Shown here piece by piece: positions 47,905-57,166 of a DNA stretch of 64,000 bases. Both the position numbers and the translations under genes were made by a program. Positions within the stretch are counted from its first letter, which is position 1, and every line of letters starts with the position of its first letter. The DNA is from Leifsonia shinshuensis (lineage in GTDB: Bacteria; Actinomycetota; Actinomycetes; Actinomycetales; Microbacteriaceae), in assembly GCF_013410375.1 (NCBI RefSeq), contig NZ_JACCFL010000001.1, positions 4,354,191 through 4,418,190 on the forward strand. The letters are read 5' to 3'. The notes under the pieces were generated by a model. It had not been told where the DNA came from. It was given only the letters and a program-made list of their open reading frames with translations, and did no database searches.

Positions 47905-48870
47905 TGAGGTAGCGGGCGTGGAGTTGCCCACACGCGGCGTCGATGCTTGCTCCGAGCTGGCGACGCCGCGTCGCATGAACTCCCTGAGCTTCGAGACCTG
48001 ATGCGAATTCGTGCACCTGGCTGCTGCTTGGCGCCGCGTAGCGTAGGTCGGCACCGAGGGCCTCGTTGTAACGGATAACGCTCACGTGGAACAAGTCAGG
48101 ACGGGAGCGACTGTGGACGAGATGCGCGAGCGCGTCGAGGTGTTCAGCACTGTCGTTGGCGCCGGCGATAAGAAGATAGGCGAGGTAGATCTTCCGCCGG
48201 CTCGCCACAGCGTGACTGTCGAGAATCTCGAGATTCTCCTGTAACGGATACCGCTCCTCCATGGGGATGATCTGCGCGCGTTGCTCGGGGAATGGCGAAT
48301 GTACGCAGAGCGTGAGCGTCAACTGAGGGTGCTCTTCAACCAGTCGGGCGAGGTTTGGAGCGAAGCCGACAGTGGACACGGTGATCCGTCGAGGCGAGTA
48401 TCCTGCGTAGTCGGCTGAAGTCAGCTATGGGTCCATTGCGGGTGCATGACCTGGGCGGCGATCTCGTCGGCGGTGAGGTTGCGAATGAGCCCCACTGCCC
48501 CAGTCGCGCAGAAGGTGCAGCCCAGACCGCATCCGGCTTGGGAGGATACGCACATTGAATCCCACCCTGACCTGTAATGCGACACGACCGTTTCGATCCG
48601 TGCGCCAGACTCTGATGTAAAGAGTACTTTCTCCAGGTGGTCGTCGCGCTGCACCTCGACGGGGGTCAGCGGATGCAGGCTAGAACCGAACATTTCCGAC
48701 AGCTCAGCGCGAAGCGTGGCAGGCAGTGCGTGCACTTGATCGAAGGTCTCCGCGGTCGAGTTCTGCCAGGCGGCGATCAACTGCTTGAACCGGAATGCGG
48801 GTTGCCCTGAGTCGGCCAGGTGCTCGCGAATGCGCATCCATCCACTGCGGGCGGTCAGAGCGGTGTTCAT
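47905..48870 (-). pseudogene. Broken Cfr-like radical SAM 23S rRNA methyltransferase
   Basis: The N-terminal part (48421-48870, MNTALTARSGWMRIREHLAD...) carries the radical SAM CxxxCxxC (GCGLGCTFCATG) and stops after ADEIAAQVMHPQWTHS. The C-terminal part continues in another frame from about 48400 (GYSPRRITVSTVGFAPNL to ASIDAACGQLHARY near 47910). Roughly 35 residues holding the GMGE motif are deleted with a frameshift, and no natural stop follows. Segments RRKIYLAYLLIAGANDS and LFHVSVIRYNEALGAD resemble Cfr more than RlmN. The ATG overlaps the bL32 stop by 4 bp. Intact homologues methylate A2503 and give resistance to peptidyl-transferase antibiotics; this copy should be inactive. Confidence 0.85.
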
Positions 48871-49052
48871 GTGTCACCGCCCGCAGTGGGAAGGATCTGG
48901 CGCCCGCGATAGTAGCCGCAGTGCTGGCATACACGATGAGCAGGGGTCTGCTTGCCGCAGGCCGGATTCGTGCATTTGGTGAGGGCAGTGGCCTTTGCCG
49001 TCCAGTGGGCGCGACGATGTTGAGTCCGGGCGCGAGATTTGCGGTGCTGCAT
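48867..49052 (-). CDS. rpmF: Paralogous ribosomal protein bL32 (zinc-ribbon form)
   Basis: 61 residues, MQHRKSRARTQHRRAHW..., with the bL32 zinc ribbon CTNPACGKQTPAHRVCQHCGYYRGRQ-type spacing (four Cys present). The usual N-terminus (MAVPKRKMSRSNTR) is shortened. It sits in an operon with a Cfr-like gene rather than in a ribosomal locus, which marks it as an accessory copy. bL32 lies close to the peptidyl-transferase region, so an alternative bL32 could remodel antibiotic binding (inference). Preceded by a ~360-nt leader with the attenuator-like element at 49391-49449. Confidence 0.88.
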   Translation of the reverse strand: MQHRKSRARTQHRRAHWTAKATALTKCTNPACGKQTPAHRVCQHCGYYRGRQILPTAGGDT

Positions 49053-49390
49053 TGGGATGGCCTTTCGCGAAGAAGATTGCGGATCAGTGAGACTGAACGG
49101 CACAACCGACACCGGCCTTATGCGGAGAGCACGGAACGGCCCGATTCGCAGCGAAGACGACAGCGCACAAATGGCCCCTGGTCAGGCTCGTTGCCCGTCG
49201 AGGAGGAGGCCACGCCACAGGTTCCCTGTGGGTTCGGCTCATCGCGACCAGTGTCGGAAGGATCGCGAACATGCCGATGCGAGGCTTCGGCCGCGCTGAG
49301 CGGCGAAGGTTTCCCGACGCCTCACTGTGAGAGATCAACGCAGGAAGAGGTCAGTCACCCGGGCTTGTGATGTGCCCGCGAATGGTGAGC

Positions 49391-49449
49391 GCCACCGGCA
49401 GTTCGGTGGCTAGATTCTGTCGACCTCGATATCCATAGGTACTACTCTA
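49391..49449 (-). promoter_or_regulatory. Leader-peptide/hairpin attenuator-like element, copy 1 (bL32-cfr-like operon)
   Basis: On the minus strand: -10 TAGAGT (49449-49444), seven bases, then ATG GAT ATC GAG GTC GAC AGA ATC TAG (49436-49410), encoding MDIEVDRI. The G of the stop opens a 7-bp hairpin GCCACCG-AACTGC-CGGTGGC (49410-49391). No ribosome site fits between -10 and ATG, so the message is probably leaderless. The remaining leader to bL32 (49053-49390) shows no other gene. Copy 2 is at 55279-55336. Confidence 0.7.
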
Positions 49450-49575
49450 CACAGTCTTATCCGGGATACGAGTTTCTGGTGCGCCTGCTAAATCGAGCTG
49501 TTTGAGTTCCGAGGTTCGAAATCACGCTGAGTCGGGTCCGGTGCAGGACGCCTCGATAGCTCGAGGGCTTCGCAG

Positions 49576-49908
49576 TCATCCGATGCCGTGCTCTTCGACG
49601 ATCCATGAGCGAGTCTGAGATCGGTCGAGGAATCGCGCCTCGTCTTCAGCCACCCCCGACCCTTCGGCGAGGACCAGCGCCAGCCAGGAGCGGTAGGCGG
49701 TTTCGTCGGGGAACTTCATGTGCGTCATCACATCGAAGCCGGCTGAGAACCGACGCTCGTCGACTGGAGGCAGGTAGTTGCGAACGTAGTAGTCGGGCGC
49801 AGGCGCTTTGCTGAGGATCAGGGGGACGTGGTGGTTCTCGTAGTAGTCGATGAACTCATCCCGCCCGAGTCCTTCGCGGGCCTTGAGAAGGGCGATAGTG
49901 GTGATCAT
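49576..49908 (-). CDS. EthD-domain (dimeric alpha-beta barrel) protein
   Basis: 110 residues; MITTIALLKAREGLGRDEFIDYYENHHVPL is the typical EthD start (KRxxGLSxxEFxxYxxxHH). Such proteins are small ferredoxin-like-fold dimers acting in oxidative degradation or dehydration of small molecules. 130 bp downstream of the hydrolase gene at 50039 on the same strand, possibly co-transcribed. Confidence 0.8.
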   Translation of the reverse strand: MITTIALLKAREGLGRDEFIDYYENHHVPLILSKAPAPDYYVRNYLPPVDERRFSAGFDVMTHMKFPDETAYRSWLALVLAEGSGVAEDEARFLDRSQTRSWIVEEHGIG

Positions 49909-50038
49909 AAGACGCTCCAGAGTTACGTTCGACTGCGCAGCACGGTCTGTCCGGCGGTTTTGAGCCGCCCGGATCCATCATCGTAGCTCGATGGTGCGCC
50001 GTGCCCGTCCCGACAATTTGGTCGCCGCTCCGGCCGGC

Positions 50039-50965
50039 TCACACACCGACCGCGAGCGTCCTGCGGTAGAAGTCCGCAAGCTGCTCAACCACGGTGGCCA
50101 CGTAGGGGTCGCGGTCGTACAGGTCGACGTGGCTGGCGCCGTCGACCCAGAGCAGCTCCTTCGGGCCGACCGCGCGCTGGTAGGCGTCGATCCCCATCCA
50201 TGCGGTCACAGCGCGGGAGCCGATGGCCATGAACAAGGGGCGGTCGCCGATCAGCGGGACCTGCGTGAAAGCGTCGAACGTGGCCAGCTTGTCCACGCTG
50301 GCCCAGTCGAACGTGCGCGCGGCGCGATCGTGGGCGGCACGCGGGGTGCAGTAGTAGTCGAAGCCCTCTGCGCCGTGTTCGCCTCCTGCGGCGCGCGCCT
50401 GCTCGACGGTCTCGGGGAACAGCGGGATGCCGGCGACGTCCTCACCGGCCGCTTGGGCGGTGCGTGCCGCAGCGGCGGCATCCAGCATGCCCTGGAACAC
50501 TGCAGGGTCTTGGGCGCCGTCCGCGCCGTACCGGAACTGCCGCGAGACATCAGCGGGCGAGACGGTCGCCAGCGACCGGATCCGATGGTCGCTCGCGGTC
50601 GCCATGAGCGAGTAGCCGCCCGAGGCGCAAATGCCGAGCAGACCGATGCGCTGCGAATCGACGAGCTCGAGGGTCGTCAGGTAGGAGACTGCCGCCTTCA
50701 TGTCCTCGATTCGCTGGGCGGGGTCCTCGAGTCCCCGAGGAGTGCCGCCGCTCGCGCCCTGGTATGCGGCGTCGTAGGCAAGCGTCACGAAGCCCTCCGC
50801 CGCCAGTCGCGACGCGTAGAGACCAGAGGCCTGCTCCTTCACGCCGGAGCCGGGGTGACCGACGACCAGGGCGGGGAAGCCGGAGGACGCTGCATCCGGC
50901 ACGTAGAGATGGGCGGCGATGGAGATCCCGGCGCTGTCGAAGGTGACGTCGTTGCGTGTGGTCAT
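50039..50965 (-). CDS. Alpha/beta hydrolase, dienelactone-hydrolase-like
   Basis: 308 residues. Oxyanion segment VVGHPGSGVKEQ, nucleophile elbow GICASGGYS with Cys in the nucleophile position as in dienelactone hydrolases, late acid/His in GASHVDLYDRD. Divergent from the XRE regulator (51113), which is its probable controller; this pairing of a hydrolase and an XRE/MmyB regulator is common in actinobacteria. Confidence 0.88.
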   Translation of the reverse strand: MTTRNDVTFDSAGISIAAHLYVPDAASSGFPALVVGHPGSGVKEQASGLYASRLAAEGFVTLAYDAAYQGASGGTPRGLEDPAQRIEDMKAAVSYLTTLELVDSQRIGLLGICASGGYSLMATASDHRIRSLATVSPADVSRQFRYGADGAQDPAVFQGMLDAAAAARTAQAAGEDVAGIPLFPETVEQARAAGGEHGAEGFDYYCTPRAAHDRAARTFDWASVDKLATFDAFTQVPLIGDRPLFMAIGSRAVTAWMGIDAYQRAVGPKELLWVDGASHVDLYDRDPYVATVVEQLADFYRRTLAVGV

Positions 50966-51112
50966 GATGATTCCGTTCCTAAGGATTCCGGCGGCGGCTA
51001 CCGCCAGGTGAGTCCATGCTCGACACGACGTTCACGACATGTAAGCAGCACGAATCTGCCGGGGAATGATCCTTCCCTCCCACAGACCCGGCCGGCACGG
51101 AACACTGGAGCC

Positions 51113-51994
51113 ATGAATGATTCGGCGGAGCGCTCCGAGTTCGGCGCATTCCTCAAGGCATGCCGCGCGCGCCTTCGGCCAGAGGAGGTGGGGCTCCCCG
51201 AGGCGAGCGGCCATCGGCGCGTCGCCGGACTGCGGCGAGAGGAGGCGGCTGCGCTCGCGGCGATCAGCGTCGACTATTACACCAGGCTGGAGCAGGGGCG
51301 GGTCCCGCCCTCACGCGGTGTGCTGGGAGTCCTCGCCCGCGCCCTCCGAATGGACGAGGATCAGCGCGCTTACCTTTACGAGGTCGCGCACGCGGTCGAC
51401 GCGGCACCCCGCCGACGCAGGGCGCGCCAGCCGGTCCGCCCGGCGCTGCGGCGGCTCCTCGAACAGCTTACGTGCACCCCCGCGCTCGTGCTGGGACGCC
51501 GCCTCGACGTACTGGATTGGAACCCGGCCGCCGCCGCGCTGTTCACCGACTTCAGCGTCATCCCGCCCTCGCAACGGAACTACCTGCGGATGCTGTTTCT
51601 GCACCCCGGCGTCCGTGACATGCACCGCGACTGGCACCATGACGCCCGCGACGCCGTTGCCGCTCTTCGCATGGAGGCGGCCGCCGAGCCGGAAGACCCT
51701 GAACTCGCCTCGCTCGTCGGCGAGCTCTCGCTGCGCGACGCGGACTTCCGCACCTGGTGGGCCGAGCGGCATGTGAGTTCTGCCTCCTACGGGACGAAGC
51801 ACTACCGGCACCCCGTCGTCGGCGAGCTCACTCTCGACTGCGACACATGGTCGAGTCCGGACGGCAGCGGTCAGCGCCTCATGGTGCTGACGGCCGAGAG
51901 CGGCAGCCCCTCGAACGACGCGCTGCGCATCCTGGCGTCGTGGTCGGAGCCGGCCCGCGCGGAGAGCACGGCCGGGGAGGGCCGGGGGCGATGA
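51113..51994 (+). CDS. XRE-family regulator with MmyB-like ligand-binding domain
   Basis: 293 residues from MNDSAERSEFGAFLKACRARL. Helix-turn-helix ~10-85 (RVAGLRREEAAALAAISVDYYTRLEQGR), then the MmyB-like PAS-type domain (ALVLGRRLDVLDWNPAAAALF, RNYLRMLFLHPGVRDMHRDW, HPVVGELTLDCDTW) that binds fatty-acid-like ligands in studied members. Overlaps the next gene by 4 bp. Confidence 0.93.
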   Translation: MNDSAERSEFGAFLKACRARLRPEEVGLPEASGHRRVAGLRREEAAALAAISVDYYTRLEQGRVPPSRGVLGVLARALRMDEDQRAYLYEVAHAVDAAPRRRRARQPVRPALRRLLEQLTCTPALVLGRRLDVLDWNPAAAALFTDFSVIPPSQRNYLRMLFLHPGVRDMHRDWHHDARDAVAALRMEAAAEPEDPELASLVGELSLRDADFRTWWAERHVSSASYGTKHYRHPVVGELTLDCDTWSSPDGSGQRLMVLTAESGSPSNDALRILASWSEPARAESTAGEGRGR

Positions 51995-52350
51995 GAGCAT
52001 GGACGGACGCGGAACTCCGGCGATTCGACGCTGCCTCCTCGCTTCGGCTCTCGGCCGGGAGCGAGGGGGACGACTCGGTCGAACTGGGCATGGTCACCGT
52101 GGGTCAGGACCTCTTCATCCGGGCGTTCAGCGGGGTGCGTTCACGCTGGTTCCAGGCGGCCGTGGGCTCGGGCGTCGGCACCATCCAGGTCGACGGCAGG
52201 CTGATCTCCGTGCGGTTCCAGCCGTCAGCGGGCGATGACCGGCGTATCGAGGCGGCCTACCGTGAGCGCTACGGTGCGGCCGCCGCCCTCGTGGGCACGG
52301 CGGGAGCCCGCGCAGCAACACTTCTGATCACCGCCAACCCGGAACGCTGA
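51991..52350 (+). CDS. DUF2255-family protein
   Basis: 119 residues, ATG overlapping the XRE stop (ATGA). WTDAELRRFDAASSLRLSAG and LFIRAFSGVRSRWFQAAVGSGVGTIQV are the DUF2255 pattern, a small beta-rich fold distantly like F420/FMN split barrels. Function unknown; coupled to the regulator. Confidence 0.8.
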   Translation: MRAWTDAELRRFDAASSLRLSAGSEGDDSVELGMVTVGQDLFIRAFSGVRSRWFQAAVGSGVGTIQVDGRLISVRFQPSAGDDRRIEAAYRERYGAAAALVGTAGARAATLLITANPER

Positions 52351-52463
52351 GTCCTTCCATGCCGATTGAGACGACGCAGTCGAGCGCTCCCGGCCGCGTG
52401 GGCCGACACCGGCTCGTCGCCTGAACGGCTACGCAGCGACGAACCCGGACCACGCTCGACTAC

Positions 52464-53012
52464 TCACGCCGCCGCTGCGCGCTGCCGCTCGCGGAAGGCG
52501 GATGCCTTGACCCGGTTGCCGCAGGTCTTCATCGAGCACCACTCGCGCCGATGACCGCGCGACCGGTCGAGGTAGACCTGCGTGCACTCGGGTCGTCCGC
52601 ACTCACGCAGCAGTGCGGCCTCCTCTCCCCCGAGAATCGCGACCGCTTCGCGCGCGAGGCTGGCGAGGCCCTCATCGACCGTGCCGCTCCGTCGCAGGGT
52701 GCCGTCGCGCAGCTCCAGCCGCACGGGGAGTGCGGCCGACGCCGCGTTCAGGTGGGCGATCGCCTCGGCGGGGAGCGGTTGATGACGGATCGTCGCATCC
52801 ACCAGCGAGTAGATGCTCTCGCGGACCTCGACCGCTCGCGCGAGCGCGGCGTCGTCGGCCGGCGGAGCGTCATCGAGCATCCCCGCCTCGACGAACCAGT
52901 CGCTCAAGGCGGCGGGGTTGTCGAGCTTCTCGGTGGGGCTCGGGTTTCGGCGTGCGCGGAGCGTGCCGACGAAGTCGAGCGGCAGCGTGCCGCAGGGGAA
53001 CGCATGAGTCAT
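52464..53012 (-). CDS. CGNR zinc-finger regulator (ABATE-CGNR family)
   Basis: 182 residues. N-terminal ABATE-like stress domain (~5-125; TLPLDFVGTLRARR) and C-terminal CGNR zinc finger (~137-175; RECGRPECTQVYLDRSRGHRREWCSMKTCGNRVKASAF with four Cys). Divergent from the small protein at 53133; two ATAACC-N9-GGTTAT sites lie in the 120-bp gap and an identical pair controls the glyoxalase operon at 57.2 kb, making this protein the best local candidate for their regulator. Confidence 0.9.
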   Translation of the reverse strand: MTHAFPCGTLPLDFVGTLRARRNPSPTEKLDNPAALSDWFVEAGMLDDAPPADDAALARAVEVRESIYSLVDATIRHQPLPAEAIAHLNAASAALPVRLELRDGTLRRSGTVDEGLASLAREAVAILGGEEAALLRECGRPECTQVYLDRSRGHRREWCSMKTCGNRVKASAFRERQRAAAA

Positions 53013-53044
53013 GTAACCAGTCTAATGGGTTTGGCCCTTCGTGG

Positions 53045-53105
53045 ACAACCTGTTTGACAGGTTATGTCTTCGTCTGCCAAGGTCATAACCATTCCAACCG
53101 GTTAT
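53045..53105 (+). promoter_or_regulatory. Double-operator promoter, copy 1
   Basis: Two 21-bp sites of form ATAACC-N9-GGTTAT lie at 53045-53065 (left half ACAACC) and 53085-53105, centres exactly 40 bp apart. Between and overlapping them is a promoter TTGACA (53054-53059), 18-bp spacer, CAAGGT (53078-53083). The same arrangement recurs at 57163-57223. Confidence 0.8.
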
Positions 53106-53132
53106 TCAATCCAGGTCATGAAAGGACCGACC

Positions 53133-53561
53133 ATGAGCGTCACCCGCTTCAGCCTCACCTCCGCCCTCGACCGCGACGCCGCGATGGACGTCCTCACGGA
53201 CTTCTCCGACGCCCGCCCCGCCGCCTGGTCGAGCATCGACCACGACCACTTCCGGGTCCACATGCTCGGCGACAGCTGGGCGGAAGTCACCGAAGGCACT
53301 GCGCAGGCGTGGGAGCGCGCCCGGTACGAATGGGACCGTGCCCGCGGAACCGTCACCATCACCACGCACGATTCCAAGGTCTTCGGGCCCGGCGGGGGCT
53401 GGTTGTTCACCCTGACTCCGGACGCGGCCGGCACCCGGATCGACGTGGAGCTCACGCGCCGCCCCGAGAAGTTCGGCCAGAAGCTGCTGGCCGGTCTCCT
53501 GCCGATCGTCGGCCCGTCCACTCTCAAGAAGTCGTTCGCCGGCCCGCTCAAAGCGGTCTGA
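53133..53561 (+). CDS. SRPBCC-like small protein
   Basis: 142 residues from MSVTRFSLTSALDRDAAMDVL, behind AAAGGACCG. The beta-alpha pattern (FRVHMLGDSWAEVTEGT, GGGWLFTLTPDAAGTRIDVELTRRP, then a long C-terminal helix) fits the START/Bet v1-like SRPBCC fold, which binds small hydrophobic ligands. First gene of the operon with the carboxylesterase; controlled by the double-operator promoter. Confidence 0.75.
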   Translation: MSVTRFSLTSALDRDAAMDVLTDFSDARPAAWSSIDHDHFRVHMLGDSWAEVTEGTAQAWERARYEWDRARGTVTITTHDSKVFGPGGGWLFTLTPDAAGTRIDVELTRRPEKFGQKLLAGLLPIVGPSTLKKSFAGPLKAV

Positions 53562-53589
53562 CAACCCTCACCGGAAAGGACTCATCGTC

Positions 53590-55227
53590 ATGACGAAGCT
53601 CCGAGCGACGTCGAGCCGTCCCGCTCGTCGGCTCCTCCACACCCTGATCGCCGCAGCAGCCGCGACGCTCAGCGCCGTCGCATTCGCCTCGCCCGCCTCG
53701 GCCACCACGGCACCCTCACCCGCGCCGCTGTACGTCACCACGGACGCCGGCCGCGTGCACGGGCTGGCCAACGGGAGCGTTCACGAGTTCCGAGGCATCC
53801 CGTACGCGGCGCCGCCGACCGGCGAGCTGCGCTGGCGGAGCCCGCAACCCGCCGCCCACTGGACGGGCACGCGGGAGACGACCGCCTACCCGCCCGTCTG
53901 CCCGCAGAACGCCCCGAGCCCCAATGGCAGCAGCGAGGACTGTCTGTACCTCAACGTGACCAGCCCCGCGGCCGCGAGCAGCGACAGCAAACCGCTGCCG
54001 GTGATCGTCTTCATCCACGGAGGCGGCTTCGCCATCGGCGAGGGGGCCGACTACGACGCCACGAAGCTCGCGGCGAAAGGCGCGGTCGTGGTGACCGTCG
54101 ACTACCGCCTCGGCCTGCTCGGGTTCCTCGCCCACCCCGCGCTGGCAGAGCGCCCCGGCGGTCCCGCGGGCAACTACGGCCTGCAAGACCAGCAGGCGGC
54201 GCTCCGATGGGTCCAGAACAACATCCGCCAGTTCGGCGGCGACCCCCGCCATGTCGCGATCGACGGCCAGTCCGCCGGAGGGCTCTCGGTCCTCGCTCAA
54301 CTCGCGTCGCCCTCCGCCGCCGGCCTGTTCCAGAGCGCGATCGTCGAGAGCGGCGCGTTCGCTCCTCAGCAGAAGACACTCGCCACCGCCGAGGCTGAGG
54401 GAACGACGGTCGCCTCCGCGCTCGGATGTGCCGACCAGAGCGCCGACTGCCTCCGGAATGTTCCACTCGCGGAGCTGCTGCGCAACGAACCGCTCTCGAT
54501 CACGCCGGGTTACGTCGACGGCGCCGTGTTGAGGGAGCCTGTGCTGCAGGCGATCGCAACGGGACGCTTCAACCGGGTTCCCCTCCTCAACGGAGCCAAC
54601 ACCGAGGAGGAGCGCATCTTCACCGAGCTCGGCCTCAGTGTGACCAAGGGCGCGACCACCATTCTCCCGGGGCCGATCACGACGGAGACCTACCAGTCGA
54701 CCATCGCGTCCAACTTCGGGGTGACCGCTGCCACTGCGGCCCGTATCGCGGCCGAATACCCGCTGTCCGCGTACGCCTCTCCGGCACTGGCGTTCAGCGC
54801 GCTCAACTCGGACGCGAACTTCTCCACGCCGGCGCTGGCCCTCGATGCCGCCGCATCGCTGCACGTGCCGACCTACGCGTACGACTTCAACGACAACAGC
54901 GCGCCCGAGCGGTTCGTGCCGCCCGCCCTCGGCTCGACCGCGACGCACCAGTCGGAGCTTCAGTACCTGTTCGACCTGCCCAACGCTCCGCTGCCCGGCT
55001 CCCTGTCCGCGGACCAGGAGCACCTGGCCGACACCATCCGATCCGCCTGGGTCCACTTCGCCGCAACGGGGAATCCGGCGACCGCCGGACAGGTCTGGCC
55101 GAAGTACGACGTCCTCCGTCACCGCGTGTTGTCGTTCCAGGCTCCCGACTCGAAAGTGGAGACCACGGTGGGCGCGCAGCACCACAGTCTCTTCTGGCTG
55201 AGCCTCACCGCAACCGTTCCTCAATGA
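53590..55227 (+). CDS. Secreted type-B carboxylesterase
   Basis: 545 residues with a signal peptide (HTLIAAAAATLSAVAFASPASA). Carboxylesterase B hallmarks: VHGLANGSVHEFRGIPYA, EDCLYLNV, VIVFIHGGGF oxyanion loop, IDGQSAGGLSVLAQL with GQSAG in place of the usual GESAG, catalytic acid near NGANTEEERIF and His in the ATHQSELQYLFD segment. 28 bp after the SRPBCC-like gene, GGAAAGGA ribosome site. Hydrolyses extracellular esters. Confidence 0.92.
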   Translation: MTKLRATSSRPARRLLHTLIAAAAATLSAVAFASPASATTAPSPAPLYVTTDAGRVHGLANGSVHEFRGIPYAAPPTGELRWRSPQPAAHWTGTRETTAYPPVCPQNAPSPNGSSEDCLYLNVTSPAAASSDSKPLPVIVFIHGGGFAIGEGADYDATKLAAKGAVVVTVDYRLGLLGFLAHPALAERPGGPAGNYGLQDQQAALRWVQNNIRQFGGDPRHVAIDGQSAGGLSVLAQLASPSAAGLFQSAIVESGAFAPQQKTLATAEAEGTTVASALGCADQSADCLRNVPLAELLRNEPLSITPGYVDGAVLREPVLQAIATGRFNRVPLLNGANTEEERIFTELGLSVTKGATTILPGPITTETYQSTIASNFGVTAATAARIAAEYPLSAYASPALAFSALNSDANFSTPALALDAAASLHVPTYAYDFNDNSAPERFVPPALGSTATHQSELQYLFDLPNAPLPGSLSADQEHLADTIRSAWVHFAATGNPATAGQVWPKYDVLRHRVLSFQAPDSKVETTVGAQHHSLFWLSLTATVPQ

Positions 55228-55228
55228 G

Positions 55229-55268
55229 GCGAGGTGCCCGACCCGTCGCGACGGGTCGGGCACCTCGC
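55229..55268. terminator. 40-bp perfect palindrome after the carboxylesterase gene
   Basis: Arms GCGAGGTGCCCGACCCGTCG (55229-55248) and its exact complement (55249-55268) meet with no spacer. It starts two bases after the esterase stop. A strong hairpin without U tract; it also abuts the -10 box of the ABC-F leader and could insulate it. Confidence 0.75.
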
Positions 55269-55278
55269 CCGCGTTCGC

Positions 55279-55336
55279 TATCATGGGCTCGTGGAAATCG
55301 AGGTCGACAGAGCCTAGCCGCCGGAGGATCGGCGGC
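55279..55336 (+). promoter_or_regulatory. Leader-peptide/hairpin attenuator-like element, copy 2 (ABC-F gene)
   Basis: -10 TATCAT (55279-55284), six bases, then GTG GAA ATC GAG GTC GAC AGA GCC TAG (55291-55317), encoding VEIEVDRA. The stop's G begins the 7-bp hairpin GCCGCCG-GAGGAT-CGGCGGC (55317-55336). Compared with copy 1, one stem pair changes compensatorily (A-T to G-C). The rest of the leader to 55558 has no gene; a GCCCGG-CACG-CCGGGC hairpin lies just before the ABC-F start. Confidence 0.7.
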
Positions 55337-55558: not shown

Positions 55559-57166
55559 ATGCCCAACACCCACACCTCCGTCGTCGCCTTGCACGACGTC
55601 AGTTACAGCTGGCCGGACGGCTCGCCCGCCCTCCGCCACCTCAACGGCGCCTTCACCGGCGGACGGACCGGTTTGATCGGCGACAACGGCGCCGGCAAAT
55701 CCACCCTCCTGAAGCTCATCGCCGGCGAGCTGACCCCCTCCTCGGGGCGTATCGACGTGAGCGGCGAGGTCGGGTACCTCCCGCAGACGATCACCCTGGA
55801 CACAGACGCCTCTGTCGCCGACCTGCTCGGAATCGGTCGCATCATCGCCTCGCTCCGCGCGATCGAACAGGGCGACGTCGACCAGGCGCACTTCGACACC
55901 ATCGGGGACGACTGGGATATCGAAGCGCGAGCCGGCCGGAGTCTGGAGTCCATCGGCTTCGGCGCCGCCGACCTGGGCACGCGGGTCGGAACGCTGTCGG
56001 GCGGCGAAGCCATGCTCATCGCCGTCACGGGACTCGCGCTCCGACGAACGCCGATAACGCTGCTCGACGAACCCACGAACAACCTGGACAGGAGAGCCCG
56101 CCGCGCCCTGGGCGACCTGATCGACGAATGGTCCGGCGCGCTCATCGTGGTCAGCCACGACCTCGAGCTCCTCGAGCGCATGGAGGTGACCGCCGAGTTG
56201 CACGCCGGCCGTCTCGAGACATTCGGCGGCCCCTACAGCGAATGGAAGGCGCAGCTCGAGCTCGACCAGCTGGCCGCCGCACAGGCCGCCCGGTCTGCAC
56301 AGCAGGCGCTCAAGGTCGAGAAGCGGCAGCGGGTGGAGGCGGAGACGAAGCTCGCACGCCGTGAACGAACCGCGAAGAAGACCCAACAGGGCGGCGGCAT
56401 ACCGAAGATCCTGGCCGGCAACCGCGCCAGCAAGGCACAAGCCTCCGCCGGGGCGATGCGTGCGGGAATGGACGACAAGATCGCGGCAGCGCAGGCCGCG
56501 CTCGACGCGGCGGACGCGCGGGTGCGCGACGAGGCGCACATCCACGTGAACCTTCCCGACCCGAATGTGCCGGCCGGACGACGAATCGCGGAATTCCGCG
56601 ACGGCACTCAGACGATCGTCGTACAAGGCCCGGAAAGAGTGGCCATCGTCGGCGACAACGGGGCCGGCAAGTCCACACTGCTGCGACGACTTCTCTCCGA
56701 AGACTCCGGATCGCCGCGGGACGGCGGCCCGGATGCGACGCTCCTGGTCGATCGAGCCGGCTACCTGCCGCAGCGGCTCGACCGGCTCGATGGGACGACG
56801 AGCGCCGTCGAGAACGTCCGTCAGGTTGCGCCGACGATGTCACCGGGAGACGTCCGCAACCAGCTTGCGCGGCTCCTGATCCGAGGCGCCGCAGCGGAGC
56901 GTCCCGTCTCCACGCTGTCCGGCGGCGAACGCTTCCGGGTTCAGCTGGCGACGCTGCTGCTCATGGATCCTCCGGCTCAGCTGCTCGTGCTCGACGAGCC
57001 GACGAACAATCTCGACATCGCCAGCGTCGAACAGCTGGCCGAGGCCCTCGACGCCTATCGAGGCGCGCTCGTGGTGGTGAGTCACGACGAGCGCTTCGTG
57101 GAACGGATCGGAGTGGACATGATCCTGGAGCTGCCCGGTGATGGCACGATCCGACGATCGAAATAA
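55559..57166 (+). CDS. ABC-F ATPase, probable ribosome-protection protein
   Basis: 535 residues, two ABC domains and no membrane segment. Domain 1: GDNGAGKST (~residue 44), LSGGEAM, LLDEPTNNLD. Linker (~230-330), Arg/Lys/Ala-rich coiled coil with interdomain tip (KKTQQGGGIPKILAGN). Domain 2: GDNGAGKST, LSGGERFRVQLATLLL, LVLDEPTNNLD. This is the ABC-F layout of antibiotic-resistance proteins (Vga/Lsa/Msr/Lmr classes) that dislodge drugs from the peptidyl-transferase centre or exit tunnel. The leader-peptide element upstream supports drug-inducible expression. Confidence 0.92.
   Translation: MPNTHTSVVALHDVSYSWPDGSPALRHLNGAFTGGRTGLIGDNGAGKSTLLKLIAGELTPSSGRIDVSGEVGYLPQTITLDTDASVADLLGIGRIIASLRAIEQGDVDQAHFDTIGDDWDIEARAGRSLESIGFGAADLGTRVGTLSGGEAMLIAVTGLALRRTPITLLDEPTNNLDRRARRALGDLIDEWSGALIVVSHDLELLERMEVTAELHAGRLETFGGPYSEWKAQLELDQLAAAQAARSAQQALKVEKRQRVEAETKLARRERTAKKTQQGGGIPKILAGNRASKAQASAGAMRAGMDDKIAAAQAALDAADARVRDEAHIHVNLPDPNVPAGRRIAEFRDGTQTIVVQGPERVAIVGDNGAGKSTLLRRLLSEDSGSPRDGGPDATLLVDRAGYLPQRLDRLDGTTSAVENVRQVAPTMSPGDVRNQLARLLIRGAAAERPVSTLSGGERFRVQLATLLLMDPPAQLLVLDEPTNNLDIASVEQLAEALDAYRGALVVVSHDERFVERIGVDMILELPGDGTIRRSK

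Follow-up and report, generated by a model that had tools for sequence, protein, structure and literature searches.

Ribosome-mediated attenuation has been established for several ABC-F genes, namely msrD (PMC10314930), cplR (PMC10201436), lmrC (PMC8546547), are5sc and tiaA (PMC12421871; here and below, papers are cited for selected passages). The ErmBL peptide arrests the ribosome while Asp10 occupies the P site and Lys11 the A site; residues Val9 to Lys11 matter, Arg at position 11 is threefold better than Lys, and Arg7 is also required (PMC4935803). XDK is among the motifs of erythromycin-dependent arrest (PMC8298421, PMC13410324), and chloramphenicol and linezolid favour Ala, Ser or Thr at the preceding position (PMC13410324). 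Here we analyse an element that occurs twice in a stretch of 64,000 nucleotides (nt) of the Leifsonia shinshuensis genome (contig NZ_JACCFL010000001.1, positions 4,354,191 to 4,418,190; the window), and that consists of a very short upstream open reading frame (uORF) preceded by a promoter-like box and followed by a hairpin starting at its stop codon. The element is real and no local coincidence; the short conserved uORF sits directly 5' of resistance-type genes.

The two copies had been noticed in an earlier reading of the window. Their positions, boxes, frames and hairpins, their identical core of 15 nt and the one stem pair in which they differ are all as described there:

49444..49449, minus strand: -10-like box TAGAGT of copy 1, 7 nt 5' of the ATG, the same position as in 35 of 44 elements
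49410..49436, minus strand: uORF of copy 1, MDIEVDRI, with the ATG at 49436 and the TAG stop ending at 49410; kept in relatives
49391..49410, minus strand: hairpin 1 of copy 1, stop-coupled, GCCACCG/CGGTGGC, from the computed fold and pair counts
49355..49388, minus strand: hairpin 2 of copy 1 (predicted fold), adjoining hairpin 1; similar folds in other long leaders
55279..55284, plus strand: -10-like box TATCAT of copy 2, 6 nt 5' of the GTG
55291..55317, plus strand: uORF of copy 2, VEIEVDRA, with the GTG at 55291 and the TAG stop ending at 55317
55317..55336, plus strand: stop-coupled hairpin of copy 2, GCCGCCG/CGGCGGC, from the computed fold; an eighth pair, G-U, is possible

Distribution of the element and its gene linkage

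The core occurs exactly twice in the whole genome (4,418,190 bases; reversed control 0). With up to two mismatches allowed the window still contains these two copies only, against 0.35 expected, and at least two were reached in 3 of 100 shuffles. Relatives of the element were found by pattern scans, by a search based on the ABC-F protein and by a covariance model, which rules out a concern raised with the original prediction, namely that the peptide might not be conserved. The peptide IEVDR, encoded by any synonymous codons, was matched eight times in 7 of 299 genomes of the family, with none in the reversed control. A scan with degenerate codons, covering one genome per species, turned up 38 loci, 35 of them actinobacterial (Microbacterium, Oerskovia, Arthrobacter, Streptomyces, Rhodococcus, Microbispora, Leifsonia, Prescottella, Leucobacter, Agromyces, Nonomuraea, Microtetraspora, Nocardia and Cellulosimicrobium); the remaining three (L047, with Ser and not Arg, L056 and L068) have neither a downstream relative nor an actinobacterial name and were set aside as chance-like. 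All 35 precede resistance-type genes, an ABC-F gene in 31 (in a few of these only partly inside the fetched stretch, and in L055 split over two frames) and bL32-Cfr genes in four: L077, L078, L065, with ABC-F as the third gene, and L070, with an ABC-F remnant. L004 and L009 lie on the same contigs as L058 and L057, respectively, so each pair was counted once. The 35 scan loci, L003, L005, L006, L007, both window copies, L080, L084 and L086 make up the set of 44 elements used below. In plasmids there were zero matches for the element, and ABC-F relatives, present in 45 plasmid records, were all below 60% identical.

Remnants of bL32, Cfr or ABC-F genes stand beside intact genes in L063, L072 and L152. 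These hint at gene loss from an older bL32-Cfr-ABC-F operon; in L063 and L072 the bL32 or Cfr fragment lies between the element and the ABC-F gene.

Searches independent of the peptide pattern led to the same linkage. With the ABC-F protein as query, 12 of 396 genomes of the order were found to have a close relative; the element is carried by all eight relatives at 67-100% identity (in one as VELIEVPDN followed by the stop) and by one of the four at 59-61% (VLTPEIDRA, likewise), the other three being L013, L085 and L087. Among 30 loci fetched in a wider ABC-F search (119 genomes), it was present in two (100% and 70% identity), and in the other 28 (38-60%) it was not seen by the scan used. A covariance-model search, suggested in the original prediction, was carried out with a model built from 28 elements and strict filters, with which weak forms may be missed. 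Among 398 genomes of the family it returned 30 matches at E <=0.01, 18 of which, in 17 genomes, are real by their context: eight known elements, L126, from the same genome as L086, and nine new ones accepted for their downstream genes (L120, L124, L125, L127, L128, L129, L130, L132 and L140). The other 12 (L131, L133-L139, L141, L142, L144 and L145) were set aside on reading. The 11 elements found outside the pattern scans (the nine new ones, L084 and L086) have Asp-Arg in eight cases and Asp-Lys, Asp-Ser and Asp-Asn in one each, and nine of them show the D-x-x-TAG form. Across the phylum, 67 of 396 genomes had matches at E <=0.1, with about 40 expected by chance; only those in the window's genome and in G079 were strong, and none of nine further loci inspected was convincing.

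In a tree of 77 ABC-F proteins (from 91 rows, less 14 that were repeats or partial; the root serves for drawing only), one branch (100/98) sets apart 51 rows, namely all 46 carriers and five non-carriers. L065, whose ABC-F is the third gene, was for that reason relabelled there as a carrier. Upstream of the ABC-F genes of L013, L085 and L087 another leader sequence is shared, around CCCAGTGT and GGTTTCGCG-CGCAA, perhaps a different leader switch.

In the window itself the downstream genes are the following:

48867..49052, minus strand: bL32 paralogue, 61 amino acids (aa), uninterrupted; TIGR01031 60.9 bits, cut-off 22.6
48421..48870, minus strand: Cfr-like methyltransferase, first piece; TIGR04432 141.5 bits, profile 4-138
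about 47905..48379, minus strand: Cfr-like methyltransferase, second piece, in another frame; NF011024 161.5 and TIGR04432 161.0 bits, profile 185-340
55559..57166, plus strand: ABC-F, 535 aa, uninterrupted; NF000355 318.8 bits, two ABC_tran stretches (Pfam)

It had been missed earlier that the Cfr-like gene is broken into two pieces in different reading frames. The best matches of these are Cfr models, with scores (141.5 and 161.0 bits) far below the full-length TIGR04432 cut-off of 550; in L065, L077, L078 and L152 the Cfr-like relatives are single frames of 363-373 aa. The ABC-F protein scores under the curated NF000355 cut-off of 380, yet this is the best of the models; it has two ABC domains, and its relatives in the PDB are ABC-F proteins. 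To judge by the names of the protein families, both gene sets would concern drugs of the peptidyl-transferase centre. Two bL32 genes are present in the genome, a four-cysteine one before the Cfr-like gene and another at 2.74 Mb (G000:C1:2741755-2741883), with zero cysteines in the matched frame; zinc binding sets the four-cysteine and cysteine-free types of bL32 apart. Genes of the Cfr-like kind are rare: the first piece matched 1 of 178 genomes of the class, the window's own, so that the link between the element and bL32-Cfr is seen solely in loci found via the element. Plasmids gave zero matches for this first piece, and viral contigs zero for the Cfr piece. Actinobacterial methyltransferases close to Cfr have been mentioned (PMC11047308).

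Promoter, peptide and hairpins

A TANNNT box lies 7 nt before the start codon in 35 of the 44 elements, 6 nt before it in seven and 9 nt in one, and is absent from L045. In the 42 rows chosen for a box at 6-7 nt an upstream TG that was not selected for is prominent (G in 39, T in 29), and no -35 signal stands out among them; in both window copies the sequence lacks the TG in the exact register of an extended -10. Since a promoter with this box spacing and TG would have transcription begin at the start codon, the transcripts are likely to be leaderless. To this extent the original prediction gains support from the promoter sequence, the fixed spacing and the unselected TG making a transcription start well upstream unlikely.

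The conserved part of the peptide, in the pattern loci as in the divergent covariance matches, is its end, E-[V/I]-D-[R/K]-x-stop. The start varies while the core is kept (MGTIEVDRA, VLIDEIDRA, VLTPEIDRA, VLTLEIDKA, VIIDEIDRA). At the level of codons, positions 4-6 are invariant in 42 elements (GAG, GTC, GAC), and Arg is encoded by AGA in 37 of the 42, as against 1.9% of the Arg codons in 39 downstream frames, in which GTC makes up 59.5% of the Val codons; as the elements are related, the codon counts are not independent. This conservation of letters exceeds what the peptide needs, and the simplest reason, though no proof, would be a slow AGA that prolongs the state with Asp in the P site.

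A hairpin of at least 6 base pairs (bp) starts from the G of the TAG in 39 of the 44 elements; two more have 8 bp starting 4 nt later, and three have 5 bp or fewer. Stems of at least 6 bp are present in 41 of 44, compared with 28.6% of shuffles. Folding energy by itself is only moderately unusual for both window copies: the z-score of the 46-nt element is -2.55 for copy 1 (equalled by 1 of 200 shuffles) and -1.58 for copy 2 (14 of 200), and that of a 71-nt stretch -0.94 (36 of 200) and -1.64 (14 of 200), respectively. A scan against Rfam gave no family above the gathering score, its six matches, with E up to 5, being all far below. In long leaders a second hairpin follows directly after the first, with changes that preserve pairing, e.g. 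UUUACCG/CGGUGAA and UUUGCCG/CGGCGAA.

After hairpin 2, the long leaders contain a strongly conserved and unexplained GGTGAnYGACC (L065, 3167-3260; window, 49340-49360, minus strand). Frame-shifted products of the uORF were considered and rejected: the -1 and +1 continuations end at varying places, and although in 14 long-leader rows the +1 frame runs for 19-22 codons and stops at or close to the conserved GGTGA, it was dropped because the peptides differ. Between an esterase gene and copy 2, a long perfect inverted repeat (55228-55269) ends just before the promoter of that copy; it is likely to be the esterase terminator.

An inverted repeat directly after a promoter occupies the usual place of an operator, and codons 4-6 are unvarying beyond what the peptide needs. 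The repeat of the element might accordingly be a DNA operator for a repressor, with the short frame as a by-product of conserved DNA. We regard this as very improbable, since stems of different sequence still pair (L041, L059, L007 and L124), the divergent forms show conservative residue changes (Val/Ile, Arg/Lys), and versions with TAA or TGA were found in 0 of 199 genomes.

Proposed mechanism and alternatives

That the element is an attenuator of some kind appears highly probable, and its full interpretation as a ribosome-arrest attenuator is the best explanation at hand and probably correct. Beyond the conservation, gene linkage and architecture documented above, we infer the drug class and the switch in the RNA. 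As the promoter spacing suggests, the RNA would begin at the first base of the start codon and the uORF would be translated leaderless. Without drug, the ribosome would complete the 8-9 codons and leave at the UAG, the stop-coupled hairpin would fold, and transcription would end early in the leader, keeping expression of the ABC-F gene or bL32-Cfr operon low. If a drug, most likely one of the macrolide kind, blocked particular nascent chains, the ribosome would halt while its P site holds Asp and its A site awaits Arg or Lys, a position suggested by the conserved E-[V/I]-D-[R/K] core. The front edge of a ribosome extends about 15-16 nt beyond the first base in its P site; on Asp codon 6 it would be near base 31-32, and the 5' arm of the hairpin comprises bases 27-33. 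In the D-x-x-TAG forms the distance from the start of the Asp codon to the hairpin is 11 nt for shorter and longer peptide starts alike, since forms longer by one codon shift everything by three. An arrested ribosome would therefore mask most of the 5' arm and polymerase would continue; opening of the hairpin by a stalled ribosome is consistent with this geometry.

The identity of the drug is less certain. The V/I-D-R/K of the core matches by sequence the Val9-Asp10-Lys11 arrest site of ErmBL, except in L084 and L130, and most element peptides are without Ala, Ser or Thr at the position favoured by chloramphenicol and linezolid; macrolide-type arrest, taken separately, has a little less than an even chance. 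An attenuator that is no specific macrolide sensor, with the uORF ribosome held by lincosamides, streptogramin A, pleuromutilins or slowing at the rare AGA, is possible though rather unlikely. Cfr and many ABC-F proteins act on drugs of these types, and the frequency of AGA in the elements, set against its rarity in the downstream frames, would fit such slowing. Moreover, on the uORFs of Streptomyces ARE5 genes, drugs of these types, unlike erythromycin, halt translation at the start codon (PMC12421871). However, a ribosome on the start codon would reach only about base 16-17, whereas the hairpin starts at base 27, and stalling there would not need so conserved a peptide end; the ARE5 uORFs quoted in that paper (MLV, MVGDDDISG) are dissimilar as well.

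As to the level of control, an output at transcription is the more plausible assumption. Translational attenuation, in which the main gene's ribosome-binding site stays buried in a leader fold until a ribosome stalls on the uORF, is known for ErmC (PMC10219788) and, together with termination, for cplR (PMC10201436). Here it appears quite unlikely: blocking of bases 1-31 shifted the modelled accessibility of the main start by just +0.019 on average, with a rise of more than 0.05 in 9 of 41 leaders and a fall in four, the main starts being script-chosen and some surely wrong. No trend towards sequestration of the Shine-Dalgarno (SD) sequence was seen in this model, and as the modelled stalling leaves the main start codon unfreed, a transcriptional output is favoured. 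Termination could also depend on Rho, if a C-rich leader were open to it after translation of the uORF and an arrested ribosome prevented its action. Rho is made possible by the excess of C over G in all 40 leaders longer than 60 nt (L066 and L070 gave no value), with a mean skew of 0.158 compared with 0.037 in upstream DNA and a value above that of the upstream DNA in 34 of 40; the absence of a U-tract from the window leaders also agrees with it. Yet the skew is a weak sign, the upstream stretch being a poor control because it is possibly coding, two leaders are just 52 and 56 nt long, and the hairpin would be left unexplained. We consider Rho a tentative option only, and a version of the arrest attenuator rather than its opposite.

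Several observations weigh against the arrest attenuator as formulated. The ABC-F genes of L013, L085 and L087 lie inside the clade of carriers and are without the element. L127 is without a stop at codon 9 (reading past codon 8, it suggests that the stop codon is not the arrest site), L130 has Asp-Ser and L084 Pro-Asp-Asn, and Arg7 of ErmBL is unmatched, the corresponding residue being Ile, Asp or another, but never Arg or Lys. A good hairpin at the stop is missing from L055 and L057, and at many single loci the stem length is not significant (shuffle fractions per locus from 0.008 to 0.63). Covariation in hairpin 1, in the core alignment, amounts to one pair (A-U, G-U, G-C), with a score reached by 17 of 500 shuffles, and sliding the structure by -3 columns gives an equally high score (0.079 against 0.072). 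RNAalifold, applied to the alignment of 44 rows, returned five other pairs (-0.25 kcal/mol) without hairpin 1, probably because loops of unequal length are misaligned; pairing of uORF codons with the downstream YGACC, which it proposed, is matched by shuffled sequences (mean z of 0.00 across the 44 elements) and was rejected. Finally, a consensus scan found no intrinsic terminator with a U-tract in either window leader.

More speculatively, and with considerable doubt, a leaderless drug sensor with a minimal D-[R/K] arrest module, tuned by the rare AGA and the stop-coupled hairpin, may have arisen once in an actinobacterial ABC-F lineage and may also govern a three-gene operon for remodelling the ribosome, in which a bL32 paralogue rich in cysteines stands together with a Cfr-like methyltransferase and an ABC-F protein. 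If so, drug-treated cells would alter a ribosomal protein, rRNA modification and a protection factor together.

Comparison with known attenuators

The peptide of the element was not found in print among the open-access papers listed, for most of which titles and the openings of abstracts were considered, and the passages of PMC10219788 are silent on it. If the proposed mechanism holds, the element would provide a testable, widely conserved drug-sensing device for actinobacterial ABC-F and Cfr-like genes and an SD-independent counterpart to the erm and msr leader peptides. It makes testable what the minimum length of an arrest peptide is, whether V/I-D-R/K suffices on actinobacterial ribosomes, and for what reason one control covers both a ribosomal protein paralogue and a 23S rRNA methyltransferase, and it offers a signature by which inducible resistance could be predicted from sequence.

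Among the described systems, MsrDL is similar in being a very short drug-sensing uORF of an ABC-F gene, at which the arrested ribosome hinders a terminator (PMC10314930). However, its peptide MYLIFM stops at its own stop codon and has an intrinsic terminator further on, whereas the element described here has Asp-Arg/Lys before a variable last residue, no U-tract that was found, and a start that is putatively leaderless. ErmBL likewise has V-D before a basic residue where arrest is proposed for the element (PMC4935803), a likeness and not a sign of descent; it exceeds the element's peptide in length, requires Arg7 and regulates an Erm methyltransferase, and no sequence relation is claimed. The lmrC, are5sc and tiaA systems likewise attenuate actinobacterial ABC-F genes by uORFs (PMC8546547, PMC12421871), but have their own uORFs with ribosome-binding sites, their own leader structures and induction of the lincosamide type. 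Leaderless attenuating small open reading frames (sORFs) are known from the mycobacterial poly-Cys attenuators, and an antibiotic-responsive uORF from mycobacterial whiB7 (both via PMC13236596); these sense cysteine supply or act via a transcription factor, respectively, and differ in peptide, hairpin and genes. Ribosome-mediated attenuation of ABC-F genes is already known, while the combination of this peptide, this hairpin and these genes appears to be new.

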